From: Lachnospiraceae bacterium
GTDB lineage: Bacteria > Bacillota > Clostridia > Lachnospirales > Lachnospiraceae
DNA: 64,000 bases
Reading direction: 5' to 3'
Assembly (NCBI GenBank): GCA_023663945.1
Contig: JAMPGL010000003.1
Coordinates: 78,315-142,314 of the forward strand
Shown piece by piece: positions 42,317-63,954 of the stretch. The notes below the pieces were generated by a model. It saw nothing but the letters and a program-made list of their open reading frames with translations. It had not been told where the DNA came from and ran no database searches. Position numbers and translations under genes: made by a program. How positions within the stretch are numbered: the stretch's first letter is position 1; each line of letters opens with the position of its first letter.

Positions 42317-42325
42317 AATACTCCT

Positions 42326-43729: not shown

Positions 43730-43797
43730 TTTCAATTTTCTCCTCAAGGTATTCCGGCAAATGAAAAGCATCCGATGTTAATCAGCGTTTTTCTAAT

Positions 43798-44874: not shown

Positions 44875-45209
44875 ACTTCCACACTCCTCTTGTTTGCATG
44901 ACTACCTAACTTAAATATAGGATAACATAATTTTTTCAAATTGTTTTCTTTTTGGGAGTATTTTAATATTCATTTCGTGAACCTTAAACATTTCTTAATA
45001 ACTTAGTTATCTTAATAGCTTAGTTATCCTAATAATTGTTATCTGATAACTCTGCTATTTGATACCCAATAATATTTTATTCCATTTAAACTCTAATATT
45101 ACAAAGTTTATTAAAAAATACACTAATATGCCGTATAGTCAATAATCACCAGCTGCTCTGAGAGATTAAAATGGCCCCAGTTTTTTCCTTTCTCCTTTAA
45201 GTCCGCCTT
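44875..45209. other. 335-bp intergenic region without a gene
   Basis: AT-rich, no ORF of note. It must hold the promoter of the SGNH lipoprotein gene; TTGAAA and TATATT on the minus strand are only 14 bp apart and not convincing. It also contains the 17-bp tandem repeats at 44995-45043. Confidence 0.5.
44995..45043. repeat. 17-bp tandem repeats upstream of the SGNH lipoprotein gene
   Basis: TTAATAACTTAGTTATC (44995-45011), TTAATAGCTTAGTTATC (45012-45028) and a shortened third unit to 45043. Each contains an inverted GATAAC/GTTATC-like core; could be regulator sites or simple slippage repeats. Confidence 0.6.
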
Positions 45210-46619
45210 TTAAAACTGACCATATATAAACTGTGAAGCATCTAACCCAATCAGCTGAATGTATGCAATAACCACCCAAATGCACAATACCGCATAAATC
45301 AACCATCTAAATAGTAAATTTTGCCTTCCAAGCAGCGTTAATACATCAATCCTGCACTCAACTAATATATCTTTCATAATTATCACTGCTATCCCCAATA
45401 TCATAGTCGTAATGATAACAGAATTGACATTCAGCGCATAAATACTTGTACTTACAATTTGCGTTAGTGCAAAATTCTTACACATATGTCCTACATAGCT
45501 GATGCCTTGCCGCAAACCTTCCGCTCGAAAAAAAATCCACGCAAAATCAACCATCATAAATGTCAAAATATTCTGAAACAAAAAATAACTATAACACCTT
45601 GTATTAATTCGCAATCGTGTCTGCATTGCATTTCTGAATTTCAATGTCATCTTACTCATAACTTGATAAATTCCATGCAGTATTCCCCAAAATAAAAATT
45701 TTGCTCCCGTTCCGTGCCAGATTCCGCTAATCACAAATGTTATCAATAAATTAGCATATGTCCGCCTTTTCCCTTTTCTATTTCCACCCAAAGGAATGTA
45801 AATGTAATCACGCAGCCACGTAGACAAGCTAATATGCCAGCGTCTCCAAAACTCACCTATGCTTCTGGAAAAATAAGGTCTTTCAAAATTTCTTGTAATA
45901 TGATAACCCAAAAACTCTGCTGCTCCCAATGCAATATTGCTATATCCGTCAAAATCAGCATATAATTGAATTCCATACAGAACTGCTCCACAAATCAGGA
46001 TAAACCCGGTATGATCTGTATATTCTTCAAAAATTATGTTTACAATGATTGCCGCATGGTCTGCTACCACAATTTTTTCAAAATACCCCCAAAACATTCG
46101 CAATAATGCTCGTTTACAAATAGTATAATCAGGAATACTCTTTTGAAGTTGAATCTGGGCTATAAAATCATTGGGTTTCTCAATCGGTCCTGAAAGAAAT
46201 TTTGGAAAAAAGGAAATATACAATGCGTAATCCCATAGTTGCGGAGCAATAATAATCTTTCCGTTATATATCTCTATAAGATATGAAATTGCCTGCATCA
46301 TGTAAAATGAAATGCCTATCGGCGCAAGAAGTCCAACTTGATAAATACCTATTCTTCTCAGGAAAACCAGTAAAAAACAAAGTATGCATATACTAGTCCC
46401 AAAGATAAATTTGCTTCTTTTTCTCAATAACACATTGCCCAGCAAATAGGATAGTGCTGTAATGCCGGACAGCCATACTAATGCTTGCGGCATTGCTAAT
46501 AACACAAACAAATAACTGACCAAAAGCAGCCATATCCTCTTTAATTTATCCGGGATCACATAATAGACTAAAACTCCTGCCGGAAATCCCGCCAAAAAAT
46601 AAATTGATGTGAAACTCAT
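45210..46619 (-). CDS. MBOAT O-acyltransferase
   Basis: 469 residues. FWRRWH (257-262) and the catalytic His of SGIWHG (H302) are intact; SGPIEKPNDFIAQIQ shows the same branch as the 18570 protein. The C-terminus is YGQF. GGGGAGCAAATAA precedes ATG 46619. It lies 50 bases after an SGNH gene, again a pair, but here the SGNH gene comes first. It is the last gene before the 335-bp gap. Confidence 0.92.
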   Translation of the reverse strand: MSFTSIYFLAGFPAGVLVYYVIPDKLKRIWLLLVSYLFVLLAMPQALVWLSGITALSYLLGNVLLRKRSKFIFGTSICILCFLLVFLRRIGIYQVGLLAPIGISFYMMQAISYLIEIYNGKIIIAPQLWDYALYISFFPKFLSGPIEKPNDFIAQIQLQKSIPDYTICKRALLRMFWGYFEKIVVADHAAIIVNIIFEEYTDHTGFILICGAVLYGIQLYADFDGYSNIALGAAEFLGYHITRNFERPYFSRSIGEFWRRWHISLSTWLRDYIYIPLGGNRKGKRRTYANLLITFVISGIWHGTGAKFLFWGILHGIYQVMSKMTLKFRNAMQTRLRINTRCYSYFLFQNILTFMMVDFAWIFFRAEGLRQGISYVGHMCKNFALTQIVSTSIYALNVNSVIITTMILGIAVIIMKDILVECRIDVLTLLGRQNLLFRWLIYAVLCIWVVIAYIQLIGLDASQFIYGQF

Positions 46620-46669
46620 TTATTTGCTCCCCTGCATCCTTTATCAAATCACAAGCCGAAAATATCTTT

Positions 46670-47599
46670 TTAATCCACTTTAAAATCGGTCAAAGAACTA
46701 TCTTTATTCACCAGTCCATTAATATACGTTTTTAAATCCTCTTCATTATTATATTCTGTTCCAAAATGAATCCCATCACTGAAATATTCATCAGGGTAAT
46801 ATGTGACAGACTCATAAAATTGTTCCATATAAGGCAGCAGCCTTTTATCCGTACACTTCTCATATATGTTCGCAAATTGCTGCTCCACTGCTTCCCTGGC
46901 CGATTCCGGCATAGGCGCATGCAGCAAATGAAACTCTATATCATTTTGTTCGCATATATCAAGCATCAACACTAAATAATCAAAAGAAAATTGTTGTCCA
47001 TCGCAGTCATTTGTGGATAACGAGTTAAGATATATTTTCTTGACTATTGGTGAATAATCTATAAAAGAAACCACGGCCGGTTTCAGCCAAAAGCCTCCGT
47101 ATATCTCTTCCAAATCAGACAGAGTCTCCATTGTCATCTCTCCCAACATTCCAGCCTCTGTAAATGGAATGATTAAATACTGATAAGTATACCCCTCCAA
47201 GCCTATTCCACTATTAAGAGATCTTGCAACTAACGTTATGTTTGTAGTTCTAGGATGATTCTCAACAAATTCCTTCATGAGAAGATACTGTCCTGCCATT
47301 GTAATTGCTTGATTACTTCCCAACGTATTATACACATCATTATATTTTTGAAAGCTATTGAATATTTGATGGCATACGCTGTCCCCAATTATCAATTTCG
47401 TGTACTCCGAATCTTTAGCCCTTGCCTGATCTATATAAGGTAATATCTCCATAGCTGATCCCCTGTCATACTCTTCTGCATTCCCAGCTTTGGCTAATAT
47501 GCTTCGATATGGCTCACAATTTGATTTACAAAAGAAAAAAAGCAAAAAAATAGTTGTAAAAGTACACAACAGCATTGTTTTTTTAATAAATTTTCTCAT
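46670..47599 (-). CDS. SGNH-fold envelope protein, MBOAT partner
   Basis: 309 residues with an N-terminal anchor or signal (about 7-24). LIIGDSVCHQIF gives the nucleophile (S74) and FSDGIH the catalytic pair (D275, H278). There is no GTND block. It resembles the small DltD-like or AlgJ-like group of cell-surface SGNH proteins. Its start overlaps the end of the GT4 gene by 17 bases and the MBOAT gene follows, so acylation is coupled to glycan assembly. Confidence 0.8.
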   Translation of the reverse strand: MRKFIKKTMLLCTFTTIFLLFFFCKSNCEPYRSILAKAGNAEEYDRGSAMEILPYIDQARAKDSEYTKLIIGDSVCHQIFNSFQKYNDVYNTLGSNQAITMAGQYLLMKEFVENHPRTTNITLVARSLNSGIGLEGYTYQYLIIPFTEAGMLGEMTMETLSDLEEIYGGFWLKPAVVSFIDYSPIVKKIYLNSLSTNDCDGQQFSFDYLVLMLDICEQNDIEFHLLHAPMPESAREAVEQQFANIYEKCTDKRLLPYMEQFYESVTYYPDEYFSDGIHFGTEYNNEEDLKTYINGLVNKDSSLTDFKVD

Positions 47600-48842: not shown

Positions 48843-50366
48843 TCATGCATCATTTTTTTTTACAACTTCCTTTGCATTTTTCAAAAAACTCACCACAATC
48901 AATATCATCACTATTCCTATTGGAAACGCCGCAATAATGCTCACCGATTGCAGATTGCTCATAGAACTATCCGAAAAAACAAGAGCAATCGGCAGCAAAA
49001 TCAAAAGCACGCACCACATTAATTGAATCCATCTATGGGGCTGCTCATCAGTATTTAATCTTTTATAACTATAGCAGGACGCAATCAACGCAATTGAATC
49101 AAACGATGTTGCGTAAAATGCTACCATTGCAGCCAAAAGTAATAACAATACCAATATTGGCAGCGGCATCGTCTGAATCACAGACACAATCAGTTCATAC
49201 AAATCCCCTGTCTTCTGATATGCCGCAAGGAAATCTGACTCCCCTGCAATCTGCTTCCCCATAGAATAATTTCCTAAAATAATAAAGCTTAAAATCGTGG
49301 AACCTACGCCAAACAAATATCCTCCGCAGATGGTCTGCCTTATTGTTCTCCCCCTTGAAATATTGCCAATAAAGAATGGAGCCGCCACACACCATACCAT
49401 CCAATACGCCCAATAATAGATTGTCCAGTTTTGCGGGAAAAAAGTTGTTCTTTGCGGATCTGTATAAGTAGACAGCTCTAAGAAATTCTGCATCATCTTC
49501 CCCAGATCGGCTATTCCTGCTTCAACAATATATTTCGTTTCTCCGCAAAATAAAAATACATAAGCAAGCAGCGAAAAAAAGAAAACCATGCACAATCTGG
49601 CTAATATACTAATCCCTTTAAAACCATGGAGCAGTGAATATGTATAAATAATGCAAGTAATAATCAGAATTAAGATTGTTACCGCTCTTGTATTTAAATT
49701 AATGGGAAATAAATGATTAATCACACTTGACATCAACGGAGTCGCAACACTAAATGTCGTAGCTGTTCCGGCAACCAACGCAAATACCGCCAATAAATCA
49801 ATCACTCTCCCCAGAATTCCGTCTGTATGTTTCCCCAAAACGGGGCGGCATGCCTCAGAGTATTTCTGTCTTTCCCTTTTACGCACATGCAGCATAAAGC
49901 CAAAAGCTGCCGCAAGTACTAAATAAAAACTCCATGGAATAAAGCTCCAGTGAAATAATGGGAATACTCCCGCCCACTCCTGCATACTTCCCAGCTCTGC
50001 AATATGTGGGTCAGACGCATACAAAATCCATTCTCCAAATGAATAAAATAAAATATCCGCCGCAAGCCCACAGGTAAACATCATTGCTCCCCATGTCAAA
50101 AAATTATACTTAGGTTTTTCATCCTGCTCTCCTAAAACAATTCTACCGTACTTTGAACCGGCAATGAAAATGGAAACCAAAAAGAATCCCAGTCCGATAA
50201 TCAAATAATAGACTCCCAAAGTATCGCCCAGAAAAAAACGTATCTGCCCTAAAACATTATTGGCTTGCTCCGGAAACATAACGAATAAAATGCACAATAT
50301 AAAAATACTCCCAAAGGGTACTGCTGTTATCAGCCAATCAATTTGCCTGTTCTTCTTTTTATCCAT
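48843..50366 (-). CDS. BCCT-family choline/betaine transporter
   Basis: 507 residues from ATG 50366 (site GAAGGAGCG), 12 helices. SKYGRIVLGEQDEKPKY, WGAMMFTCGLAADILFYSF and the signature YYWAYWMVWCVAAPFFIGNISRGRT are those of BetT/OpuD-type carriers; the Trp/Tyr box for the quaternary ammonium group is there. It would import choline. Its gene overlaps the LicC-like gene by eight bases, so it takes the place of LicB in a choline-incorporation operon. Betaine or carnitine uptake for osmoprotection is possible but does not fit the neighbours. Confidence 0.9.
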   Translation of the reverse strand: MDKKKNRQIDWLITAVPFGSIFILCILFVMFPEQANNVLGQIRFFLGDTLGVYYLIIGLGFFLVSIFIAGSKYGRIVLGEQDEKPKYNFLTWGAMMFTCGLAADILFYSFGEWILYASDPHIAELGSMQEWAGVFPLFHWSFIPWSFYLVLAAAFGFMLHVRKRERQKYSEACRPVLGKHTDGILGRVIDLLAVFALVAGTATTFSVATPLMSSVINHLFPINLNTRAVTILILIITCIIYTYSLLHGFKGISILARLCMVFFFSLLAYVFLFCGETKYIVEAGIADLGKMMQNFLELSTYTDPQRTTFFPQNWTIYYWAYWMVWCVAAPFFIGNISRGRTIRQTICGGYLFGVGSTILSFIILGNYSMGKQIAGESDFLAAYQKTGDLYELIVSVIQTMPLPILVLLLLLAAMVAFYATSFDSIALIASCYSYKRLNTDEQPHRWIQLMWCVLLILLPIALVFSDSSMSNLQSVSIIAAFPIGIVMILIVVSFLKNAKEVVKKNDA

Positions 50367-51090
50367 TTTTACGCTCCTTCTCAAAATAGTTAAGGTAACT
50401 GCCATCTAAAGCCGCTAATTCCTCCAAATTATCTATCTCTGCAATATCGCCCTTTCGCATTTCCATAATCCCAAGTTGAAATTGCTCCGGATAACAAAAA
50501 AGCGCCACATCATCCCAATAAATCTGTCTGTTCTTTTTCACTTCAAATTCATATTCCAAATATTTTTTTAGTTTATGACCATCTTCCTTTGTCCATCTTG
50601 ATATGCTGTATAATTGCCATCCCTTACTGCCCCCATTTCGGCTGCACCCGCATACTTTTCCATTCTGAACTGTTAAAATCCATTCTTTCGTAGGTTCCTC
50701 CGTCCATACACAGTTATATCCTGACCTTTCAAACTCCCGGCACAATATACCAGCGTTAAAGATCATCTGATCCCCATCCAAAATAACCGCTTCCTCTATA
50801 TAGTTCCGCGCCGCATACAGAGACGAAATGTTATTGCATTCCTTATAATAAGGGTTTTCTATTAATCTTATCTCTGGATATTCCTGTTTTAAGGCTTCAA
50901 ACTGCTCCTTTAAGTATCCAACCACAATATAAATTTCCTGTATGCCGTTTGTCCTTAGTGCCTCAATAACCGTATCGATCATTCTGATACCATTTACTCT
51001 GACCAAAGGCTTAGGCACTTCCAGCGTAACTGGATGCATACGCTTCCCTTCTCCTGCTGCCACAATGACAGCCCGCTGCACCATATTCAT
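50359..51090 (-). CDS. licC: LicC-like CTP:phosphocholine cytidylyltransferase
   Basis: 243 residues. AVIVAAGEGKRMHPVTLEVPKPLV holds the nucleotide-binding loop of sugar-1-phosphate/phosphocholine nucleotidyltransferases; ILDGDQMIF replaces the metal Asp region and NNISSLYAARNYI matches LicC proteins. It would make CDP-choline from phosphocholine. The neighbouring three-domain protein contains a second such domain. ATG 51090 follows AAGGAGAATTGATAA, right after the stop of that gene. The exact nucleotide and substrate are inferred from context. Confidence 0.85.
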   Translation of the reverse strand: MNMVQRAVIVAAGEGKRMHPVTLEVPKPLVRVNGIRMIDTVIEALRTNGIQEIYIVVGYLKEQFEALKQEYPEIRLIENPYYKECNNISSLYAARNYIEEAVILDGDQMIFNAGILCREFERSGYNCVWTEEPTKEWILTVQNGKVCGCSRNGGSKGWQLYSISRWTKEDGHKLKKYLEYEFEVKKNRQIYWDDVALFCYPEQFQLGIMEMRKGDIAEIDNLEELAALDGSYLNYFEKERKNG

Positions 51091-51093
51091 TTA

Positions 51094-52860
51094 TCAATTC
51101 TCCTTCAATTCTTCGCTTACTATCCGGTAAAATTCTTTTGCATACCTGTACTGCCGCAATGAGTACTCTCCAAATTCCACTCCCAGGCTTCTCTTATACT
51201 CACACCAATTACTCCAAAGCAGACCGCATACTGCAACATAACAATATATTTTTATCCGTATTGCAGACTCACATTGACCGTCAAAATATATATCAATCAA
51301 TTTATCTATCTGATCTTTTCCATAAAAAGAATAAATACCAAACATCGCTAAATCCACATGCGGATCCTGCATTCCTGCATATTCCCAATCAATAAGCAAA
51401 ATTCGCTCTTTCCCGTCCTGCTCTTTTATGAACAAGAAATTATCCGGCACTGCATCAATATGTGTCAGCCAGCTTTCTTCTCTGTTCCGTTCGATAAACG
51501 GCTTTAACGAAAACACTTTCTTTTTGGTTTCTTTATAGTCACGGTAAATAGACGGCTCCTCGTTCCATAAAGATTCATAAAACTCTATCTTTTGGAATAA
51601 ATCAAACTCATGCTCCACTTTTAACTTCATTTCATGCAGCGCTTTCAATTGATGCATACATCTTTCCACATCTTCCATGCAATACGGGTCACAGCACCTT
51701 GCCTCCTGAAAAAATTCTGTAATCTTATATCCATCGGCGGGATTTAGATAAATAATCTGTTCGCTTATTTCCTTTCCCTTCAGCATCTGATAAACACTAT
51801 ATTCCTGTTTTCGGTCAATCAAACGATCCGTTCCTTCCCCCGGAATTCGCATAATGTATTTTTTTCCTTTACATTCAAACAAAAATGATCTATTAGTTAT
51901 TCCTTTTTTTAATATTGAAATATGAATGATATTCTCTTTTGCCGCCTTCAATGTTCTGCATATAACATCCAGCGCCTCTGTCTTCAGCTGATTAGAATTA
52001 CTGTCAAGCTCCCTAAGCTGTTCATAAGTATTGATTTCTATGACTTCATCATCTTCAACCATCTTTGCCCATACCATCTCCTTATCATTTGACAAAAATG
52101 CCTCTTCCCAAAAAGCATTGGCATACTGCGTATCACCATCAAGAGCTCTGAGAATCCGTCTAAATTCCGCAGATTCCTCTCTGTCAATATAACCAATTCC
52201 TATCATTCGATTTCCAAACTCTTTATCAGCCGCTCTGACCAGCCGCATCCTTCTATTTGCTTTCACATTGCTTTCTTTTGTCTGCATTCTGCTGACCATG
52301 TACCACGTATACAGTTCCTGCCTGCAGAACGGGTTTCCTTTGCACCAAATATCACAGGGGATAATGTAGCTGCTTTCTATATAGGCTTCTGCCAAACATA
52401 GCGAATGTAAATTATTCTTAGAAGAATATTCACTATTTACAATCAGTTCTACTCCATATTGGTCAACCAAATATTCGTACTTTTCCTTTAAAAAGCCAAC
52501 CACAATATATATTTTCTGTACCTGTACTTCCTTAAGCTGACAGATTATCCTTTCTATCAGCGTTTCGCCTCTTACCTCTATTAATCCTTTAGGCGTTTCC
52601 ATGTTAATCGGCACCATACGCATCCCATAGCCTGCCGCAAGAATAATTGCATTACAAGGTTTTTTCTCCTGTACGAAACATTTCGCTTTCTCAGTTAATC
52701 CATATTCTGTATTGATATATTTTTGTCTTGCTAACTCTTTCAAGGTCCGATTAATTATCCCTAATGAATAACCAGTCTGTTCCGCTAAATCTCTCTGGTT
52801 AACATACTTTTCAGAATACAGTTTGTTAAGTATATCGCATTCTACTTTGTTCATGTACAT
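51094..52860 (-). CDS. Fusion of HTH domain, LicC-like cytidylyltransferase and LicA-like choline kinase
   Basis: 588 residues. Residues 3-62 form a winged helix-turn-helix (CDILNKLYSEKYVNQRDLAE, INRTLKEL). Residues 68-285 are a nucleotidyltransferase (AIILAAGYGMRMVPINMETP; PCDIW as metal site). Residues 300-588 are a choline-kinase-like phosphotransferase: MRIPGEGTDRLIDR for ATP, HIDAVPDN (467-474) with the catalytic Asp, and IDWEYAG with D491 for metal. The enzyme could phosphorylate choline and activate it to CDP-choline; the HTH suggests self-regulation. AAGGAG precedes the ATG. It sits between the YidC fusion and LicC genes. Confidence 0.9.
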   Translation of the reverse strand: MYMNKVECDILNKLYSEKYVNQRDLAEQTGYSLGIINRTLKELARQKYINTEYGLTEKAKCFVQEKKPCNAIILAAGYGMRMVPINMETPKGLIEVRGETLIERIICQLKEVQVQKIYIVVGFLKEKYEYLVDQYGVELIVNSEYSSKNNLHSLCLAEAYIESSYIIPCDIWCKGNPFCRQELYTWYMVSRMQTKESNVKANRRMRLVRAADKEFGNRMIGIGYIDREESAEFRRILRALDGDTQYANAFWEEAFLSNDKEMVWAKMVEDDEVIEINTYEQLRELDSNSNQLKTEALDVICRTLKAAKENIIHISILKKGITNRSFLFECKGKKYIMRIPGEGTDRLIDRKQEYSVYQMLKGKEISEQIIYLNPADGYKITEFFQEARCCDPYCMEDVERCMHQLKALHEMKLKVEHEFDLFQKIEFYESLWNEEPSIYRDYKETKKKVFSLKPFIERNREESWLTHIDAVPDNFLFIKEQDGKERILLIDWEYAGMQDPHVDLAMFGIYSFYGKDQIDKLIDIYFDGQCESAIRIKIYCYVAVCGLLWSNWCEYKRSLGVEFGEYSLRQYRYAKEFYRIVSEELKEN

Positions 52861-52925: not shown

Positions 52926-54989
52926 CTATCGTTTTGAATATTCAATCAATTTACGGATAATATACTTTGCGCCTACTTCTCCGCTTGTTCCCACATTATA
53001 TAAGTATTCTTTGCGAATCTTCCGCATTTCATCCTTGGAAAATGTTCTGTCATTTAATAATTTTTCTATCGTTGTTCCAATTTCGTTCAGTTGGTTCATA
53101 TCTATTGAAATTCCTATTTTATTTCGAATCTCAATATCAAAAGGGCAGACCCCTATCTCCTCATAATCCGGATTCATGATCTTCATAGGTGTATTGACAA
53201 AAAGCGTCGGTTTTAAAGTTGTAAACGAATATTCATAAGCAATGCTTGACCAGTCTGTCACCAAAACATCCGCCCTAAACACTGTCTCATTAGACGAAAA
53301 ATCCATTTGTAACTCAAAATCCTTTTGATCCGCGTACTGCTCCGCCAGTGCAAGCAGTTTGTCCTCAAAATGCCTCACATATTGCGGATGAGGTCTCACT
53401 ACAATGTGGTATCCTTTCCCCAAAAGGTTCCCCAATATTTCATAGATTCCAGATTCTAATATATTTTTATCCTGCCAGGAAGGCGCAATTAAAATTGTTG
53501 GTCTTTCATTTATAAAATCACTATCTGCTTTATATGCCTCAATCATATTATCAATCAGACAAGAGCCAAACTCAACAATATTTTTGGGCTTCAACCCATA
53601 ACATTTTTCTTGTGCCCGTATTTCTGCCTTTCCAATTTCATTTGAAGCAAAAATCGTATCAAAATAATCAAGCGCATGTTTTCTTAAGGTCAGATTATCG
53701 CTCCCAATGCCATGATCTAAATAAACATACTCAATATCCTCTTTTATTATGGACCGCTTAATATGATATTTCTGCAAATCCGGCATCGTCATAACAACCA
53801 TATCTGCTTCCATCTTCATCATAAGAACAATTAGTTTATTTTCACCAATATAATAAACTCTGAATTGGTCACTGGCTAAAGCAAATACCTCATCTTTCGG
53901 ATCTCCGGTAATATAATGGATAATAATATCTGTTTTACTTAGGATTGTCTCAATGACATTTTGATAGTATTTATAAAATCCATTCTTCTCAGAATAAAAT
54001 ACCAATTGCTTTCCGCCATATTTTTGAAACCGTTTATAATCTTGTGCTTCCTGCCTGGAATACTCATCGTGTCTCTTTTTATTTCCAGAAGCACTGTATT
54101 TCTGCACTTTATCCAATTCTGACTTACTTGATGCTAAATCCTCATAATCAATATATTTCTTAGGATTGATACACGCATTAAGCATAAATAATGTTAAAAT
54201 AGCAATCAAATTACTAAGTATCCAGTAAGCGCCTACGCCTGCCGGCACAAAAAAGCCTAAATACAAGGATAAGCCGACTGACAGCAATAACGTTGTAATC
54301 TGATTAACCTTTCCCTGTTCTGACTGTAAAACATTCGCTTTATTCTGGACAAAGCACATCAGCCAGGAAGACATTGCCGCTAGAAGAGGAATCATAATTG
54401 TAATTCCCCAAACCTTGGACGGAACAGCTCCTAAATTAATTCCCCAAAAGTTCATATCAATTCCAGCAACAGCATTCAATATATCCTCAGACAGTACCTG
54501 TCGGTACGCCTCTATATAAGCAGAGTTCTTCATACTGTCCACAATCTGTATCTGAATAGAACTGATTTCCGGGCTTACTCCAGACAGGCCGCAGTATGTG
54601 TTGACTAACGTATTGACTGTCTCTTTAGAAATATGAAGTAAATGACTGATTGGTCTATATATGACGTCTACAACTCCCATAAGAATAATGAGCTGCAGGA
54701 TAACCGGCACCAAATCCAGCATCGGATGGTACTTTTCTTTTTGATAAAGCTTATACTGTTCTTCCGATATTAAATCCTTACTTCCAAAATATTTAGCCTT
54801 AATACGATTCATCTCAGGGTACATCTTGACCATTTTGATGGAATTCTTTTGCACCATAATAGAAATCGGCATTAATATAATCTTAGTAATAATTGTAAAA
54901 ATAATAATACTAATCCCGTAACTATGCAAAACCTTATAGCATACATACATAATCTGACCAAACAGATTCCCTATTGCCTGTGTGATCAT
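52926..54989 (-). CDS. Fusion of YidC/Oxa1-like insertase domain and TagF-like CDP-glycerol glycerophosphotransferase
   Basis: 687 residues in one frame. Residues 1-285 are a YidC/Oxa1-like domain: GISIIIFTIITKIILMP with a Lys (K36) where many YidC have the groove Arg, QKNSIKMVKMYPEMNRIKAK, EEQYKLYQKEKYHPM, and the last helices VPAGVGAYWILSNLIAI. A charged linker (285-325) leads to a GT-B domain (about 328-687) of the CDP-glycerol glycerophosphotransferase family: LDHG (H426), VRPHPQ (532-536) and LVTDWSSIAYEYS (576-588). TagF-type enzymes polymerise glycerol- or ribitol-phosphate on lipid-linked glycans; the insertase part may serve as membrane anchor or guide the polymer or lipid. AGAGGATAAGTAA precedes ATG 54989. 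Confidence 0.9.
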   Translation of the reverse strand: MITQAIGNLFGQIMYVCYKVLHSYGISIIIFTIITKIILMPISIMVQKNSIKMVKMYPEMNRIKAKYFGSKDLISEEQYKLYQKEKYHPMLDLVPVILQLIILMGVVDVIYRPISHLLHISKETVNTLVNTYCGLSGVSPEISSIQIQIVDSMKNSAYIEAYRQVLSEDILNAVAGIDMNFWGINLGAVPSKVWGITIMIPLLAAMSSWLMCFVQNKANVLQSEQGKVNQITTLLLSVGLSLYLGFFVPAGVGAYWILSNLIAILTLFMLNACINPKKYIDYEDLASSKSELDKVQKYSASGNKKRHDEYSRQEAQDYKRFQKYGGKQLVFYSEKNGFYKYYQNVIETILSKTDIIIHYITGDPKDEVFALASDQFRVYYIGENKLIVLMMKMEADMVVMTMPDLQKYHIKRSIIKEDIEYVYLDHGIGSDNLTLRKHALDYFDTIFASNEIGKAEIRAQEKCYGLKPKNIVEFGSCLIDNMIEAYKADSDFINERPTILIAPSWQDKNILESGIYEILGNLLGKGYHIVVRPHPQYVRHFEDKLLALAEQYADQKDFELQMDFSSNETVFRADVLVTDWSSIAYEYSFTTLKPTLFVNTPMKIMNPDYEEIGVCPFDIEIRNKIGISIDMNQLNEIGTTIEKLLNDRTFSKDEMRKIRKEYLYNVGTSGEVGAKYIIRKLIEYSKR

Positions 54990-55265
54990 TTACTTATCCT
55001 CTGCCTTCTCTTCATCAAGGACAATATCCTCATCTACATGAATTTCCCGCTTTTCTGTCTCTTTATTCTTCTTAAAAAACTGTGCAATCCGATGTCTGAA
55101 AACAGTAAGAACTGCTCCTAATGCAATAAATACTGCCGCCACAGCCTGAATCACATAAGTGACAGCTGATGGATCAATGTAGGCATGTGCATACATTGTA
55201 AAAAAAGAATAAAAACAAGTAAAAAAATACACGAACGAGAATAACTTCAATATTATCTTTTTCAT
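54990..55265 (-). CDS. Small two-helix membrane protein with AYIDP motif
   Basis: 91 residues from ATG 55265, chosen because GGAGGAGACATTGCT is upstream; twelve further codons are open. A signal-like helix (about 3-24) is followed by AYIDPSAVTYVIQAVAAVFIA (about 28-48) as second helix and a basic then acidic cytoplasmic tail. I recall the AYIDP helix in small proteins near sulfatase-like or phospho-polymer enzymes, but know no function. It is immediately followed by the YidC-fusion gene, and divergent from a sulfatase-like gene, so it may be a partner of either. Confidence 0.75.
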   Translation of the reverse strand: MKKIILKLFSFVYFFTCFYSFFTMYAHAYIDPSAVTYVIQAVAAVFIALGAVLTVFRHRIAQFFKKNKETEKREIHVDEDIVLDEEKAEDK

Positions 55266-55395: not shown

Positions 55396-55436
55396 AAATA
55401 TTGTTGCAAGTTAATGATTATATGGAGATATATCTT

Positions 55437-57113
55437 ATGAACAATAAAAAAAGCAAATACTTTTTTTCTCTCCTTGTCCATCTTTTTTCAGCTTTCACGC
55501 TAGTTATTTTTGGTCCTTATGAAATTTTTATTTCGAACACCAATGACTTTAGTTTTACCTTTCGTGATTTTTGGTGGATTCCCTTAAGCGCGGCTGTTCT
55601 TTATATTATGACCGCAACAATAATATGCACATTATTACCATCAATATTCGGAAACATTTTAAATTGTTTTGCCTTTTCTTTTACATTGTGCTGCTATATT
55701 CAGGCCATGTTTCTCAACGGCAAAATGCAGGTTATGCTTAATCAGGAAATCCGCTGGAATACTTCTACCATTTTGGTAAACATAATTATTTGGATATGCA
55801 TATTTGTCATTATATTTTTATTGCCATTTTGGTTTAAGCAAAGCTGGAAAAAAATCATTGCATTTGCCTCATCTGCCCTTATAGCGATCCAATTATCTGC
55901 TTTAATTTTTTTGTTTATTACCACTAACGCCCTCACTGAGGAAAAAAACGGTTATCTCTCGCAGGATGGTATGTTAGAGTTATCTCCAAATGAAAATGTA
56001 ATTGTATTTGTACTGGATACCTTTGATATTAGAACTATGGATCGGATTCTTGGAGAAGATCCTGATTTTTTAAGCCCATTAACTGGATTTACTTATTTTC
56101 CCAATGCAACCAGCACACATAGCAGAACTTATCCTTCTGTTACTTATTTATTAACTGGAAATATGTGCTATTTTGATCAAACACCGGTAGATTATGTTAA
56201 TAATGCGTTTGCTGACAGTAATTTTCTTCCCACATTATACAATAATCAAATTGATATTGGTCTTTATACGTTTGACTATTATATTGGGAACAGCGTCAAA
56301 ACAAAAATACGTAATTACGTTCCCCTTAGCTTTTCTCTAAAATATAAAAGAACCATAAGATACTTGTTGCAAATTGCATTGTACCGTGATATGCCCTATG
56401 CTGTGAAACCTTATTTTTATTATGATGTAAATGATATTAATAACAATATAGTTGATGAGTCAAATTTCCAGTCAGCTGCAAATGAAGATTCTGCTATCCC
56501 TGCATACAAAAATTTTGACGATGAATGGTTTTATGATTCCTTAACTACGAATAAGCTAAGCCTGTCCAATCAAGAAAGCAGTTTTCGGTTTTACCACCTT
56601 GCTTCTTGTCATCTAAACCTATCCGACATGGCTCCATATGGAAAAAGAAGCATAGAGATTATATATGATTATCTCGATCAAATGAAAGCATTAAATATAT
56701 ACGAAAACTCTACCATAATCATTACTACTGATCACGGCTGGTCAGGAGGTCAAGGCGACCTTGACCTTCCTCAGGCAACAGCTGCTGCATTGACGATTGT
56801 TAAACCTTCCGGAACACTGAATGAAGAATTAACCATCTCAGAAGCCCCCGTAGCGCATACAGATTTCATTCCTACTGTTTTGAATGGTTTTTCATTGGAC
56901 TATAGCGATTATGGAAATACTGTTTTTGATATTCCAAATTCAGCGGAAAGGGATCGATATTACTATTATTCCGCATTATATTCTGATGAAGAGGGAGAAG
57001 TTGAATTACGTGAATACAAAGTCTCCGGAGATGCCAGAATTGATTCCAGTTACCACTTTACCGGCAACAAATGGGAAATTTTTTACTCATTAAATAAAGT
57101 AGCTCCTAAATAA
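55437..57113 (+). CDS. Membrane sulfatase/phosphoglycerol-transferase-like enzyme (alkaline phosphatase superfamily)
   Basis: 558 residues from ATG 55437 (GGAG nine bases upstream; a TTG and an ATG further up are less likely). Four or five helices (about 8-165) precede an external alkaline-phosphatase-fold domain. IVFVLDTFD (D194, D197), STHSRTYPSVTYLLTG with a Thr nucleophile candidate (T231), and IITTDHGWSG (D432, H433) bind metal and substrate as in LTA synthase and phosphoethanolamine transferases. It would move a phospho-alcohol from a lipid onto a glycan outside, or hydrolyse a sulfate. It heads the plus-strand operon. Confidence 0.82.
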   Translation: MNNKKSKYFFSLLVHLFSAFTLVIFGPYEIFISNTNDFSFTFRDFWWIPLSAAVLYIMTATIICTLLPSIFGNILNCFAFSFTLCCYIQAMFLNGKMQVMLNQEIRWNTSTILVNIIIWICIFVIIFLLPFWFKQSWKKIIAFASSALIAIQLSALIFLFITTNALTEEKNGYLSQDGMLELSPNENVIVFVLDTFDIRTMDRILGEDPDFLSPLTGFTYFPNATSTHSRTYPSVTYLLTGNMCYFDQTPVDYVNNAFADSNFLPTLYNNQIDIGLYTFDYYIGNSVKTKIRNYVPLSFSLKYKRTIRYLLQIALYRDMPYAVKPYFYYDVNDINNNIVDESNFQSAANEDSAIPAYKNFDDEWFYDSLTTNKLSLSNQESSFRFYHLASCHLNLSDMAPYGKRSIEIIYDYLDQMKALNIYENSTIIITTDHGWSGGQGDLDLPQATAAALTIVKPSGTLNEELTISEAPVAHTDFIPTVLNGFSLDYSDYGNTVFDIPNSAERDRYYYYSALYSDEEGEVELREYKVSGDARIDSSYHFTGNKWEIFYSLNKVAPK

Positions 57114-57136: not shown

Positions 57137-58633
57137 ATGTTGTTTAATTCAATAAATTATTTGATTTTTTTTCCGATTGTTGTTTTCATTTATTACCTAA
57201 TTCCAAAAAGAATTAAGCATCTATGGTTATTGTGTGCAAGCTATTTTTTTTATATGTGCTGGAATGCAAAATATGCTCTGTTAATGCTATTTTCCACACT
57301 GGTAACCTATGGCTGCGGATACCTGTTAGATATTATAAAATCAAAATCACTGAATGAAAAAAAAGAACTATTACTAAAAAGATTTACTATTATTGTAAGT
57401 TTATTGCTGAATTTGGGCATTCTTTTCTATTTTAAATATATAAATTTTGCCCTTCAGACAATTATCAAATTATTTCAACTTGTAAATATTGAAATATCAA
57501 TTCCTTCATTTGATATTATACTGCCTGTTGGGATTTCTTTTTTTACTTTTCAGGCTATTGGTTATACGATTGATGTATACCGCGGTGAAATCAAAGCAGA
57601 ACGAAATTTATTTCGTTACGCGTTATTTGTATCCTTTTTTCCGCAATTAGTTGCGGGGCCTATTGAACGTTCTAAAAATTTATTGACCCAGCTGCATACT
57701 GCTCACAAATTTGACGTCAGCCAAGCAGAATCCGGATTATTGACTATGGTTTATGGGCTGTTTCTAAAAGTTGTAATAGCCGATAACATTTCAAATGTCA
57801 TCGACCCGGTATTTTCATCACCAGAACAATATATGGGAATGGAACTTCTCTTGGCGGTCATTTTATTTGCTTTTCAAATATATTGTGATTTTGAAGGTTA
57901 TAGTAAATTGGCAATCGGCAGCGCGCGGGTTTTGGGCATCCATTTAAACCAGAATTTCAATTCGCCATATTTAGCGTCCAGCGTTAAAGATTTCTGGCGC
58001 AGATGGCATATCTCACTGACTTCATGGTTTCGGGATTATTTATATATTTCTTTAGGCGGAAACCGAAAGGGAGTATTGCGCAAGCATTTCAATATGATGA
58101 TTATATTTCTTTGCTCCGGGTTGTGGCATGGTGCCGGTTGGAAATTTATTGTCTGGGGTGGACTAAATGGTCTTTTCTGCATTACCGAAGATTTATTCAA
58201 GCCAATAAATGAAAAATGGTTTTATAAATTGAAAATCAATAAATGCACATTTTCCTACAAATTATTTCAAAGGATAGCTGCTTTTTTACTGATTGATTTT
58301 ACATGGATTTTTTTCAGAGCAGAAACATTACGTTCTGCTATCTATATACTCTGTAAAATTGTTGAAGAATTTAAATTCGAATGGATTTTAGTCGCGGAAT
58401 ACTTAAATACATTTATTTCACCCCAACAATTCATAGTAATAACCTTGTCATTACTAGTTTTATTTGTAATTGACTATCTTCGATACAAAAAAATAAATTT
58501 ACAGGAATTGTTTTTCAGCCAGCAATTTCTGTTTCGATGGATTGTCTATTTTTTCCTTTTTTTGCTAATAATTTATTGGGGAGCCTATGGAACCGATTAT
58601 GAACAAACACAATTTATTTACTTTCAATTTTAA
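57137..58633 (+). CDS. MBOAT O-acyltransferase (first of tandem copies)
   Basis: 498 residues. MLFNSINYLIFFPIVVFIYYLIP and CWNAKYALLMLFST are standard; FWRRWH (286-291) and H331 in SGLWHG are intact. It is closely similar to the MBOAT at 59548-61047 all along (SFFPQLVAGPIERSKNLL and others), so the two pairs arose by duplication. A site GAGGATAGCAAT precedes ATG 57137. Its end overlaps the SGNH gene by 47 bases. Confidence 0.93.
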   Translation: MLFNSINYLIFFPIVVFIYYLIPKRIKHLWLLCASYFFYMCWNAKYALLMLFSTLVTYGCGYLLDIIKSKSLNEKKELLLKRFTIIVSLLLNLGILFYFKYINFALQTIIKLFQLVNIEISIPSFDIILPVGISFFTFQAIGYTIDVYRGEIKAERNLFRYALFVSFFPQLVAGPIERSKNLLTQLHTAHKFDVSQAESGLLTMVYGLFLKVVIADNISNVIDPVFSSPEQYMGMELLLAVILFAFQIYCDFEGYSKLAIGSARVLGIHLNQNFNSPYLASSVKDFWRRWHISLTSWFRDYLYISLGGNRKGVLRKHFNMMIIFLCSGLWHGAGWKFIVWGGLNGLFCITEDLFKPINEKWFYKLKINKCTFSYKLFQRIAAFLLIDFTWIFFRAETLRSAIYILCKIVEEFKFEWILVAEYLNTFISPQQFIVITLSLLVLFVIDYLRYKKINLQELFFSQQFLFRWIVYFFLFLLIIYWGAYGTDYEQTQFIYFQF

Positions 58634-59558
58634 AAGAAGTACATTTTTTATATGTAAACTCCTGCTGTTTACCATACTTGTCTGGGGCTACTTTAATTGC
58701 ATAATGCCTCAATATGATGGTGAATACACTTCTGCATTAGTTGACAAGGTAAGGCATCTGGAAGCAATTGAAGAACCCAAAATTGTCTTGCTGGGAAATT
58801 CCAATCTATCATTTGGAATGGACTCAGCTATGCTTGAAGAGAACATGGGAATGCCAGTTGTAAATATGGGCTTGCATGCAGGAGTGGGAAATGCCTTTCA
58901 TGAAGAAATGGCTAAACTTAATGTCCATGAGGGAGACATTTATATCTTATGCCATACTGATTTTGCTGATAACGACACGATAGAAGATCCTACTCTAACA
59001 TGGCTGGTTATCGAAAACCATTATTTTTTGTGGAAGCTTCTACGTCCAAAGGATATCCTCCCTATGATAAAGGCTTTTCCAAATTATTTGAAAAAAAGTT
59101 TAAGCTTGTATATTTCTAATACGGGAAATCAAGATTTTGGCGGCGAATATTCCAGAAGCGGATTTAATGATTATGGAGACGTTGGTGTCTTGCGCGAAGA
59201 AAATATCGTTGTTTTTGACACCCCCATTAATCCTCCGTCAATCAATGACACAACAATAAACCGAATAAATAAGCTGAATAAATGGTTAAATGAACGAGGC
59301 GCTACCCTGCTTATTGCCGCTTATCCTATCGCGGAAGGCAATATGACCGCTGATACCGCTGAATTTGTCAGTTTTCAAGAAGAATTATCATCCAAATTGG
59401 ATTGTGCTGTTATTTCAAATTACACTGACTATATGTTTGATTATTCCTATTTTTATGATACATACTATCACCTAAGCACAGCAGGCGCAGAACTTCGCAC
59501 CCGGAAGTTAATAACAGATTTACAGCATTGGAAGGAGGATGTTGAAAATGCTTTTTAA
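58587..59558 (+). CDS. SGNH-fold envelope protein, partner of tandem MBOAT
   Basis: 323 residues. After a short N-terminus an anchor helix (about 18-36) leads to an external domain. Block I is LLGNSNLSFG: Asn71 stands where GDS proteins have Asp, and S72 is the likely nucleophile. The C-terminal pair is DTYYHL (D291, H295), with one residue more than the usual DxxH. The 47-base overlap with the MBOAT gene, and an ATG inside it after GGGGAG, points to coupled translation. Function: acyl transfer to the surface polymer, inferred. Confidence 0.78.
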   Translation: MEPIMNKHNLFTFNFKRSTFFICKLLLFTILVWGYFNCIMPQYDGEYTSALVDKVRHLEAIEEPKIVLLGNSNLSFGMDSAMLEENMGMPVVNMGLHAGVGNAFHEEMAKLNVHEGDIYILCHTDFADNDTIEDPTLTWLVIENHYFLWKLLRPKDILPMIKAFPNYLKKSLSLYISNTGNQDFGGEYSRSGFNDYGDVGVLREENIVVFDTPINPPSINDTTINRINKLNKWLNERGATLLIAAYPIAEGNMTADTAEFVSFQEELSSKLDCAVISNYTDYMFDYSYFYDTYYHLSTAGAELRTRKLITDLQHWKEDVENAF

Positions 59559-61047
59559 TTCTGTCCAATTTCTAATTTTCTTGCCTATTGTACTAGTTAT
59601 TTATTATATTATTCCTAAAAAAATTAAATATATATGGCTGTTACTATGCAGCTATTACTTCTATATGTGTTGGAATGCATTATATGCCTTGTTAATTCTC
59701 TTTTCCACAATAGCTACTTATTTATGTGGATTGGGATTAGAGTATATTAAACAAATAGATTACTCTGATAATCAGAAAATTAAATTAAAAAAAATGTGTG
59801 TCACCATAAGTCTAGTTCCAAACTTGGGGATACTATTCTTTTTCAAATATTTTGATTTTTTTATAAATAATATTAATAATGTCCTTTCACACATTAATGT
59901 CCAACTTGTTCATCCTGCATTTGATATCCTGCTGCCAGTAGGAATATCATTTTATACATTTCAGGCTATCGGCTACACATTAGATGTTTACAGGGACGAA
60001 ATCTATGCAGAAAAAAATTTCCTAAAATATGCCTTATTTGTATCCTTTTTTCCACAATTAGTTGCAGGTCCCATTGAAAGATCTAAGAATCTGCTAAAGC
60101 AGCTTTCTGAACCTGCCAAATTACAATTTGACAATTTTAGAGAAGGATTACTGCTGATGCTTTGGGGATATTTTCTTAAAGTGGTATTAGCTGACCGCAT
60201 TGCAATTTTTGTTGATAGCATATATGCAGAACAGCAAAATGGACCTGATGGATATTTCTTTTTTGTTGCAACACTGCTATTTGCATTTCAAATATATTGC
60301 GATTTTGCAGGATATTCAACAATCGCAATGGGCTCCGCCAAATTACTCGGCATCGAATTAATGGTTAATTTTAATGCCCCCTATCTTTCAAAGTCAACTG
60401 CTGAGTTTTGGCGGAGATGGCATATTTCCCTTTCAAGCTGGTTTAAAGATTATTTATATATTCCACTGGGCGGAAATCGGAAAGGAAAAATAAGAAAATA
60501 TGTCAATTTATTAATTACATTTGCAATAAGCGGATTATGGCATGGTGCAGCATGGTCTTATATTGCTTGGGGATTACTTAATGGAATTTATCAGATAATC
60601 GGTGAAATACTTCGGCCAATTAAAAAAGTATTAATTCAAATGCTTGGACTTAATGAAAATAGTTTTGGACACAAGGTAGTAAAAGTTGTTATAACTTTCT
60701 TATGTATTGATTTCTCTTGGATATTTTTTAGAGCAAGCAGTTTCTCATCAGCTGTCAAAATAATAAAAAGTATGCTTTGCGTCCATAACCCGTGGATATT
60801 ATTCGATGGTTCTCTCTATCATTACGGTTTAGATAGAAAAAATTTCCAATTAATGCTGTTAGGCATTGGAATTCTATTGCTAGTAGACATTGCTGCTTAT
60901 AAAGGAATAAAATTGAGAAAATTTATAGCAGAACAGGATTACTGGTGTCAAGCAGTTATTATTACATTTTCCATCATTTCAATTTTATTATTTGGAATAT
61001 GGGGGAACACTTATGACGCTGCTAATTTCATATATTTTCAATTCTGA
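59548..61047 (+). CDS. MBOAT O-acyltransferase (second of tandem copies)
   Basis: 499 residues from ATG 59548, nine bases after AAGGAGG; an ATG at 59539 lies directly on that site and is less likely. FWRRWH (287-292) and H332 in SGLWHG are intact; N-terminus MLFNSVQFLIFLPIVL and C-terminus YDAANFIYFQF. It is the near-duplicate of the first MBOAT of this operon. The gene start overlaps the end of the SGNH gene upstream by 11 bases. Confidence 0.93.
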   Translation: MLFNSVQFLIFLPIVLVIYYIIPKKIKYIWLLLCSYYFYMCWNALYALLILFSTIATYLCGLGLEYIKQIDYSDNQKIKLKKMCVTISLVPNLGILFFFKYFDFFINNINNVLSHINVQLVHPAFDILLPVGISFYTFQAIGYTLDVYRDEIYAEKNFLKYALFVSFFPQLVAGPIERSKNLLKQLSEPAKLQFDNFREGLLLMLWGYFLKVVLADRIAIFVDSIYAEQQNGPDGYFFFVATLLFAFQIYCDFAGYSTIAMGSAKLLGIELMVNFNAPYLSKSTAEFWRRWHISLSSWFKDYLYIPLGGNRKGKIRKYVNLLITFAISGLWHGAAWSYIAWGLLNGIYQIIGEILRPIKKVLIQMLGLNENSFGHKVVKVVITFLCIDFSWIFFRASSFSSAVKIIKSMLCVHNPWILFDGSLYHYGLDRKNFQLMLLGIGILLLVDIAAYKGIKLRKFIAEQDYWCQAVIITFSIISILLFGIWGNTYDAANFIYFQF

Positions 61048-62752: not shown

Positions 62753-62845
62753 ATGATATCTGGCAGGTTGAGAATTGGTTTGATATGCGCATTAGTTTAT
62801 TACTTTGTTTTGATATTAATATTTCTTAAAAGAAGAGATACTTGA
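62753..62845 (+). pseudogene. Truncated DUF2304-like membrane gene remnant, or 30-residue membrane peptide
   Basis: ATG 62753 has GAGAGG seven bases upstream and encodes 30 residues: a single helix (LRIGLICALVYYFVLILIFL) then KRRDT and TGA. This is what the first quarter of a DUF2304 protein looks like (a family of about 110-120 residues with two or three helices, often encoded next to GT2/GtrA genes). The rest is missing and the GT2-GtrA gene starts 14 bases later. It is probably a remnant, though a functional short peptide cannot be excluded. Confidence 0.55.
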
Positions 62846-62859
62846 AGGGGAAAATGAAA

Positions 62860-63954
62860 ATGAAACATGATAATATTTATGTTATAATTCCAGCACTTGA
62901 TCCGGATGCTAAATTAATAAAACTTCTTGATGAGCTACATACAATAAACATAACGAAAATCGTATTAATTGATGATGGAACACGAAATGAGGGTAACAAA
63001 AATATTTTTGAAATGGCTTTAAATAAATATCCTGATTTGATCATTTTGCGAAATTATATTAACCTAGGGAAGGGAAGAGCTCTTAAATATGCTTTTAATT
63101 ATCTCTTGAACAATTCAGGTATGGTCAAGGGGGCTGTAACTGCAGATTCTGATGGGCAGCATAGTGCCTCCGATATTCAAAAATGTATCAATTTGTTGAG
63201 ACAAGAGCCAGATGATTCTAATGTATTATTTTTGGGATATAGAGATTTTGATTCAAAAAATGTACCTTTTAGAAGCAAATTTGGAAATAAGATAACCCGC
63301 ATTGTTTTGAGCGGCTTATGTGGTGTTAATGTGACGGATACTCAGACCGGATTGCGGGGTTTTACGCGCAAATCAATGGAAAGTTTTCTGGATACGGGTG
63401 GAGAACGCTTTGAATATGAGACAAATATGCTTATTGAAACTAAAAGCAAAAATGTCAAAATAAAAGAATACCCGATAGAAACAATCTATATTAAAGAAGA
63501 TGGTGGCGTAAATAAAACTTCACATTTTAATCCGCTTAAAGATTCATTGAAAATATATTCATTATTTATCAAATTTATTATTGCATCATTTGCATCATTT
63601 ATTATTGACATCACTCTTTTTGCAATATTATGTAAGGTATTTGCCGATATTATGCCTGTTTATGTTATTTTTGTCAGTACTTATTTGGCGCGTGCGGTAT
63701 CGGCTATATTTAATTTTATAATGAATCGTCATAAAGTCTTTCACAGTAATGTGCCCATTGTTGAAAGTGCAGTAAAGTATATAATTCTTTGCGTGGTGCA
63801 GGCTTTCCTGTCAGGTTGTTTAGTGACGCTGCTAGTTCATTATTTAACGTTCAACAATGTTGTCGCTAAAATCATAATAGATACTTTTTTGTTTTTTATT
63901 AATTTTGGTATTCAACGCGAGTATATATTTAAGAATCGAGGAGAAGTAGTGTGA
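62860..63954 (+). CDS. Fusion of family 2 glycosyltransferase and GtrA-like membrane domain
   Basis: 364 residues from ATG 62860. Residues 1-220 are GT2: VIIPALDPDAKLIKLLDEL, IVLIDDGTRNEG, NLGKGRALKYAFNYLL and TADSDGQHSASDI (metal site), DTQTGLRGF. Residues about 228-355 are four helices of the GtrA type, with NFIMNRHKVFH and NFGIQREYIF as typical ends. Such enzymes make a polyprenyl-phosphate sugar and flip it. ATG 62860 is nine bases after AAGGGG; ATG 62854 is an alternative. Beside the DUF2304-like remnant this is a familiar arrangement. Confidence 0.9.
   Translation: MKHDNIYVIIPALDPDAKLIKLLDELHTINITKIVLIDDGTRNEGNKNIFEMALNKYPDLIILRNYINLGKGRALKYAFNYLLNNSGMVKGAVTADSDGQHSASDIQKCINLLRQEPDDSNVLFLGYRDFDSKNVPFRSKFGNKITRIVLSGLCGVNVTDTQTGLRGFTRKSMESFLDTGGERFEYETNMLIETKSKNVKIKEYPIETIYIKEDGGVNKTSHFNPLKDSLKIYSLFIKFIIASFASFIIDITLFAILCKVFADIMPVYVIFVSTYLARAVSAIFNFIMNRHKVFHSNVPIVESAVKYIILCVVQAFLSGCLVTLLVHYLTFNNVVAKIIIDTFLFFINFGIQREYIFKNRGEVV

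Follow-up and report, generated by a model that had tools for sequence, protein, structure and literature searches.

A YidC–TagF-like fusion protein in Lachnospiraceae and other bacteria: a candidate centre of a membrane machine for phosphocholine-like head groups

Introduction

The window analysed here is a stretch of 64,000 nucleotides from a Lachnospiraceae bacterium (assembly GCA_023663945.1, contig JAMPGL010000003.1, positions 78,315 to 142,314), and its subject is one minus-strand frame, 52926-54989 (-), which is open from ATG to stop, intact, and encodes a 687-aa protein joining a YidC/Oxa1-like domain to a TagF-like (Glyphos_transf) domain. The fusion contributes two of four modules that form a set: a small membrane protein with a YIDP motif (the YIDP protein), the YidC-like domain, the TagF-like domain, and an LtaS-like enzyme of the AlkP superfamily. 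It is proposed, tentatively and with slightly less than even confidence, that the fusion is the centre of a four-module membrane machine that adds phosphocholine-like head groups to the cell surface. The gene context has been computed; the donor, the acceptor and the translocation are what we infer. Judged from this context, the function would be an end stage of a new kind in a pathway of a known kind.

The fusion protein and its relatives

Both halves of the protein are recognised by public family models: Pfam 60KD_IMP (PF02096) covers residues 24-271 at 101.7 bits (cut-off 35), Glyphos_transf (PF04464) covers residues 457-597 at 47.8 bits (cut-off 22.1), and NCBIfam TIGR03592 yidC_oxa1_cterm passes its cut-off of 84.3 with a score of 88.6. 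NCBIfam's equivalog models for full-length YidC all stay below theirs on the window fusion. Our own profiles match residues 3-277 (YidC) and 327-687 (TagF). The YidC/Oxa1-like domain (54159..54983, -) has five hydrophobic segments by hydropathy, as in the conserved YidC core, and column counts place a groove lysine at residue 36. A charged interdomain linker, residues 278-326 (54012..54158, -), is delimited by the profile borders and the alignment of relatives, and is followed by the TagF-like domain (52929..54011, -), in which the alignment places H426, H534, D579 and S581. When a profile of 41 fusion relatives was compared with solved structures, it found YidC (5mg3, 3wvf and 3wo7, at E values between 3e-21 and 7e-19). 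Among matches up to E 1 there was no structure of TagF, and phmmer with the single fusion protein likewise found none, giving one weak, meaningless methyltransferase match. An earlier note, made from the letters of the stretch, had described a single 687-codon frame joining these two domains, with the His and DWSS motifs of TagF in place; Pfam, NCBIfam and our own profiles confirm the join, the assignment to the YidC family holds, and the motifs are present.

To find relatives, a species-genome collection was scanned with six short peptide patterns, which miss distant copies. Relatives are encoded in 47 of the 58 matching stretches in public genomes, mostly along the whole query and at 35-81% identity, and the record labels name Lachnospiraceae, Oscillospiraceae, other Clostridia, Eggerthellaceae, Coriobacteria and Saccharibacteria. 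Within the window's family, sampled at one genome per genus except for two in the window's own genus, the fusion occurs in at least 17 of 299 genomes among the matches listed, sorted by score (G000, G199, G267, G281, G278, G241, G283, G274, G178, G177, G018, G080, G184, G128, G202, G298 and G046, the copy of G202 being split over contig ends). It was not found among the matches listed for G248, the other sampled genome of the window's genus.

All fetched loci together hold 86 frames with both halves, 64 of them distinct by their last 110 residues and some cut by contig ends. The earlier note had named misassembly as a possible undoing of its claim, and 64 distinct fusions across genomes rule out both misassembly and a chance join of two genes. 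A search for unfused halves of this type (type A) by profile thresholds returned only L040 and L050 below them, both cut by contig ends, and a 749-aa frame in G299 (L171), once considered a fusion, was dropped for want of any profile match.

Four loci (L031, L032, L034 and L046) lie on contigs of metagenome-assembled genomes labelled Candidatus Saccharibacteria in their records; the AlkP, fusion and YIDP genes overlap in three of the four, and L034 has no AlkP match. If the labels hold, such loci are unusual for reduced genomes such as these.

A four-module set and its shuffling

In the window, the YIDP gene (54990..55265, -; 91 aa, alternative start 55301), taken from the frame list and hydropathy, ends with a stop that directly abuts the ATG of the fusion. 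Over 63 distinct type A loci, a YIDP gene lies near the fusion in 51, within 300 bp in 45, and an AlkP-like membrane enzyme is near or fused in 36. These 63 loci omit L014 (a copy of L013), L071 and L080 (on contigs as long as those of L012 and L021) and the later-fetched L176, and include several cut by contig ends, among them L009, which is scored as lacking a supply gene despite a transaminase gene starting at its edge.

The window's own AlkP-superfamily enzyme (55401..57113, +) is a divergently transcribed, LtaS-like membrane protein with five hydrophobic segments and an outer domain, as judged from hydropathy and a profile of 16 relatives. A Pfam search of this protein by itself gave no match; with the profile of 16 relatives, LtaS (2w5q, 3.9e-9) was nearest among solved structures. 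D206, T243, H399, H404, D444 and H445 are invariant in the 16 aligned proteins, and we take T243 to be the nucleophile and the others to be the metal ligands of the AlkP superfamily. At 300 bits or more, the family is found in 13 of the 17 fusion genomes (three of them, G000, G199 through L012, and G178 through L021, matching by construction since they supplied rows to the profile), as against none of 17 hand-picked genomes without the fusion, where the best score is 32 bits.

The same modules recur in other arrangements. Beside the window's order (YIDP, YidC-TagF, AlkP) there is a single 1466-aa AlkP-YidC-TagF protein at L045, its AlkP part recognised by our own profile at 382 bits and not by Pfam, and a single 1224-aa YidC-TagF-AlkP protein at L048 (Pfam Sulfatase 30.2 bits). 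A separate clade, type B, divides the set differently: its TagF is not fused to YidC and starts with a YIDP segment in 23 of 23 distinct proteins, and its YidC domain, usually encoded next door, shares a frame with AlkP in 28 of 28, a biased sample in that L172-L175 and L177-L183 were fetched for their frames. Pfam 60KD_IMP scores 69-93 bits in all eight type B YidC-AlkP proteins searched, of which three pass the Sulfatase cut-off, and the type B AlkP proteins have four to six further hydrophobic segments (5/5 examined). The earlier note had allowed that the homologues might all be separate genes; the fusion recurs, and type B fits that description in part, its TagF being free of YidC and its YidC-like domain being joined to AlkP. 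That four modules are shared while the partner of the YidC-like module changes points to a working role and not to an accidental join.

Two type B TagF genes of G003 (L095 and L103) have no adjacent YidC-AlkP gene, three such genes lying elsewhere in that genome. One type B YIDP-TagF protein (L088:7496-9700) carries about 300 extra C-terminal residues that include a hydrophobic stretch.

Genes for head-group supply

Three genes on the same strand, downstream of the fusion in the window, suggest the cytidine diphosphate (CDP)-choline pathway. The nearest (51094..52860, -) encodes, in one protein, a winged helix, a LicC-like cytidylyltransferase and a LicA-like choline kinase (Pfam; PDB 4r77, choline kinase, and 1jyk, LicC). 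Next to it is a second LicC/PntC-like nucleotidyltransferase (50359..51090, -; Pfam, and 318 bits with our own nucleotidyltransferase profile, of which it is itself a member), and then a BCCT-family transporter (48843..50405, -; Pfam 413.7 bits, NCBIfam bcct 407.5 against 407.55), probably for choline or betaine uptake by its family. Phosphoenolpyruvate (PEP) mutase was not found in the window genome, where this second LicC/PntC-like enzyme is present. The winged-helix DNA-binding domain that precedes the LicC-like and LicA-like domains is shared by full-length relatives at L015 and L026, and nearly so at L037; the protein may be a CDP-choline enzyme that has a built-in regulator.

Elsewhere the supply genes in this position differ. 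Among the 63 distinct loci, 15 have a set for aminoethylphosphonate (AEP), nine a choline set, six a CobD-like/LicC-like fusion, six a nucleotidyltransferase alone and 27 none; of the 41 loci whose flanks reach 5 kb or more on each side, 26 have a supply gene. The AEP set, analysed in representatives with Pfam and PDB, consists of PEP mutase, a thiamine pyrophosphate enzyme that resembles phosphonopyruvate decarboxylase, a transaminase of class V and a cytidylyltransferase of the LicC/PntC type. In the one representative of the CobD-like set that was analysed, a LicC-like domain is joined to a domain of the aminotransferase fold. The latter has 6oux ('threonine phosphate decarboxylase-like') as its top PDB match and 1lc5, a threonine-phosphate decarboxylase, in third place; by these similarities, the product of the fused protein is probably CDP-ethanolamine or CDP-aminopropanol. 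Type B loci have a supply set in 12 of 23 cases (9/15 in a first set, 3/8 in a second).

At the same thresholds, supply, AlkP or YIDP profiles match none of 16 ordinary yidC loci and none of 20 ordinary TagF loci, five of the latter giving weak nucleotidyltransferase matches of 31-50 bits. PEP mutase exceeds its cut-off in 13 of 30 genomes with type A or B genes, compared with 18 of the 269 others (Fisher test, p 5e-7, shared ancestry ignored), the type B genomes being those among the matches listed, so that weaker type B genes may sit in the 269.

Beside three fusions lie cytidylyltransferases of PF01467, the TagD superfamily, whose scores do not reach the TagD cut-off. The one at L100 stands by itself, that at L078 is combined with a GFO_IDH_MocA domain and that at L086 with a radical-SAM domain. 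The last of these proteins (L086:6000-7961), a radical-SAM/SPASM domain plus the cytidylyltransferase, is encoded just before the fusion gene and is perhaps the maker of some other CDP-activated group. G267 has four YidC-TagF fusions (L072, L077, L078 and L176), each with different genes beside it (MobA-like nucleotidyltransferases; a choline set; PF01467 plus an oxidoreductase domain; AEP genes), and these look as if each loads its own head group.

A candidate user of CDP-choline in the window genome

Neither LicD nor TagD gave a match in the window genome, an assembly that is 94% complete, which makes these absences strong hints and not proof. The fusion is the only Glyphos_transf protein in that genome, and with LicD and TagD not found, it is the best candidate user of CDP-choline. 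LicD itself was considered for this role and set aside on the same absence. Phosphatidylcholine synthesis by a CDP-alcohol phosphotransferase is disfavoured, since the genome has only one such gene, a 186-aa frame that is presumably PgsA.

The TagF-like domain keeps the residues expected of its family. H426, H534, D579 and S581 are conserved in all 102 aligned domains (56 type A, 23 type B and 23 ordinary TagF), the two histidines being those we take to be catalytic in TagF enzymes, and residue 582 is variable in the 56 type A rows (serine in 23, glycine in 25). Arg506, in the PT[WFY]R motif, is present in 23/23 ordinary TagF proteins and is replaced by glutamine in 55/56 type A and by glycine in 23/23 type B domains. 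This pattern fits a cytidine monophosphate (CMP)-type chemistry that is kept and a donor or acceptor that may have changed. The type A and type B profiles cross-match at 150-200 bits, with ordinary TagF giving 24-35 bits or nothing with either, and in a tree the three groups each fall on one side with SH-aLRT (Shimodaira–Hasegawa-like approximate likelihood ratio test) values of 99, 99 and 97, obtained by a quick method with long branches flagged.

These data also bear on the idea, part of the earlier note's picture, that the protein is a polymerase of the ordinary polyol-phosphate (teichoic acid) kind whose anchor is unusual. Such an enzyme would explain the Glyphos_transf score above the Pfam cut-off, the PF01467 neighbours at L078, L086 and L100, and the presence of TagD over its cut-off in two of the 30 carrier genomes (G278 and G281, both fusion carriers; some weaker match occurs in 18/30). 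TagD is missing above the cut-off from the other 28, the window genome gives no match to it at all, Arg506 has been replaced, the window's neighbours are genes for CDP-choline and not CDP-glycerol, and the 20 ordinary TagF loci have none of the fusion's neighbours. A plain polymerase has accordingly been rejected as the principal explanation, and is considered very improbable.

The YidC-like domain

Residue 36 was aligned by sequence to the arginine of solved YidC, and we take it to be the equivalent of the charged groove position. It is lysine or arginine in all 58 type A rows (which include the near-identical L013/L014 and L035/L042/L049), lysine in only three of the 15 ordinary YidC proteins of the window's family with a letter there, and asparagine or glutamine in 15/15 type B domains. 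Further invariant polar residues occur in the YidC part of 41 aligned fusions. A tree built from 89 YidC domains separates three groups: the fused ones (support 96/92), ordinary YidC of the window's family (96/90) and, on a long branch, type B (100/100); the distance between the two coupled types means that their couplings may be independent. A separate ordinary YidC is encoded in 28 of the 30 type A or B genomes (with a stop in frame in G103, and as two frames in G128), the two without a match, G298 and G047, both being 84% complete. If the usual YidC topology is kept, the C-terminus and with it the TagF part would be cytosolic, where CDP donors are.

A first alternative, considered unlikely, leaves the TagF-like domain as a phosphocholine or AEP transferase and makes the YidC part an anchor or scaffold beside AlkP and a polyprenyl-linked acceptor, with export by a Wzx-type flippase. 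A Polysacc_synt (Wzx-like) gene is nearby (39596-41131), and soluble transferases often require membrane recruitment. A whole five-segment fold with K/R in 58/58 and invariant polar residues (41 rows) would be needless in an anchor, and the four to six hydrophobic segments that the type B AlkP has of its own would make one superfluous; the earlier note's option of a mere anchor is thus weakened by the sister architecture.

The YidC-like part could, on the other hand, still be an insertase or chaperone for its own partners, inserting AlkP or the YIDP protein and holding them with the TagF part. Membership of the YidC family by profile agrees with this, as does the abutting YIDP gene, small single-span proteins being typical YidC clients. 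A general YidC is present in 28/30 carrier genomes all the same, and the type B arrangement, joining YIDP to TagF and AlkP to YidC, would turn AlkP into an internal client of its own polypeptide, so that we regard an insertase role as decidedly unlikely.

The earlier note had suggested that a membrane groove may pass lipid-linked polymer or acceptor to the polymerase; read in one way, the groove would deliver acceptor lipid from the membrane to the TagF active site, with no translocation. Conserved groove charge and the membrane-bound acceptors used by TagF enzymes are consistent with delivery, which leaves the joining of YidC to an outward-facing AlkP in type B unexplained and is, in this form, improbable. 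The wider notion that the groove serves the TagF part is plausible, given K/R in every type A row and the in vitro scrambling of lipids by E. coli YidC and other insertases, reported in the parts examined of PMC10491306; sections of a review (PMC7618853) likewise describe YidC as thought to act in such lipid scrambling. As its fusion partner is the inner transferase in one type and the outer AlkP in the other, the YidC-like module stands, in effect, between both sides, and the role we favour for it is to let a head-group carrier cross the membrane.

Proposed mechanism and points against it

In the proposed machine, the BCCT, LicA-like and LicC-like proteins would, by their family membership, import choline and make CDP-choline. 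The cytosolic TagF-like domain would then move phosphocholine from CDP-choline to a membrane-bound acceptor with release of CMP, the donor at other loci being CMP-AEP or another CDP-amino-alcohol. The YidC-like domain, with its positive groove charge, may take the head group of the product across as a dedicated scramblase or flippase, and the outer AlkP/LtaS-like enzyme, held with the YIDP protein, may pass it to a surface glycan. A more general form of the idea, in which we have clearly less confidence, is that a YidC/Oxa1 protein has turned into a dedicated flippase or scramblase for lipid-linked phospho(no)-amino-alcohols, TagF-YidC-AlkP being a synthase-flippase-transferase line whose head group would be set by interchangeable supply genes.

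Several results weigh against the proposed machine. The acceptor is putative, and the product is presumed to be lipid-linked. LicD is present in 12 of the 17 fusion genomes, where it may share the labour, and TagD exceeds its cut-off in G278 and G281. By our own profiles no supply gene is found at 27/63 type A loci, at 15 of the 41 flanked by 5 kb or more on each side, or at 11/23 type B loci, and the PEP mutase of G177, G018 and G047 is on the LicD contig, away from the A or B locus. The PF01467 neighbours fit CDP-activated donors generally, so that other donors, even polyols, are possible at L078, L086 and L100. Charge at the groove position is not required in both types, as type B has asparagine or glutamine there, and four of the 17 fusion genomes (G281, G278, G298 and G046) have no strong AlkP match.

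Relation to known systems

The closest parallel to the window is the Lic-1 system (LicA-LicB-LicC-LicD) with TacF of S. pneumoniae, where choline import, choline kinase and CTP (cytidine triphosphate):phosphocholine cytidylyltransferase are likewise found in one locus and, as proposed here, the head group is placed on a surface polymer. In pneumococcus, according to passages of PMC13385700, phosphocholine is added by LicD to the unit of teichoic acid, which then leaves the cell through TacF, a flippase of the MOP type, and is polymerised on the outside. The window differs in that the YidC-TagF fusion and AlkP stand in place of LicD, which was not found in its genome. LicABCD, PptA and enzymes of phosphatidylcholine were the basis of one survey of phosphocholine pathways, with YidC and Lachnospiraceae unmentioned in the parts examined (PMC10434233).

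The AEP/CMP-AEP type genes beside 15/63 fusions resemble phosphonyl tailoring (Ppm, Ppd, a transaminase and PntC). Rice et al. (2019) call the steps after C-P bond formation enigmatic and mention LicD-like phosphotransferases or glycosyltransferases (PMC6697681); 'CDP-glycerol' and 'YidC' each occur 0 times in that paper, and no such fusion is named in the parts of it examined. A changed donor for a TagF-like enzyme has a precedent in CD0244 of the C. difficile Type A flagellar glycan, proposed in the consulted portion of PMC10714395 to transfer phosphothreonine from CDP-threonine and not glycerol phosphate. Its acceptor differs, being a protein-bound sugar, and 'YidC' occurs 0 times in that text. 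In the titles and abstracts listed from the open-licence literature, searched for YidC with TagF, phosphocholine/LicD, sulfatase/AEP and LTA (lipoteichoic acid) synthase, the architecture is not described, in line with the earlier note, to which no such description was known.

With YidC/Oxa1 insertases the fusion shares the 60KD_IMP match, the PDB YidC matches and K/R in the groove; it is unlike ordinary insertases in forming its own clade (96/92), in being joined to enzymes, and in standing beside a general YidC in 28/30 genomes. In GT2-GtrA-type three-component glycan modification a carrier is loaded, flipped and used for outer transfer, and the proposed machine would follow the same logic as a phosphate counterpart of GT2-GtrA-GT-C sugar modification, differing in its phospho-amino-alcohol head group and in that all protein families are other. 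The window itself encodes, within the same surface-polysaccharide region, the sugar version of a synthase-flippase fusion, a GT2 domain joined to a GtrA/DPMS membrane domain (62842-63954, +; Pfam). Four MBOAT genes also flank the locus, two on each side (41141-47599, -, and 57137-61047, +), accompanied on the left by GDSL and AlgX-like genes; these groups are probably glycan O-acylation sets.

Concluding remarks

Host immune proteins recognise head groups of this kind, and apart from LicD little is known of the last steps of bacterial tailoring with AEP and phosphocholine. The analysis supplies a concrete set of candidate enzymes, present in at least 17 of the 299 genomes sampled from one gut-associated family and also outside it. 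If the proposed role is true, the YidC/Oxa1 family would have a non-protein job previously unknown there, and an in vivo use of the lipid scrambling by insertases seen in vitro would become testable.

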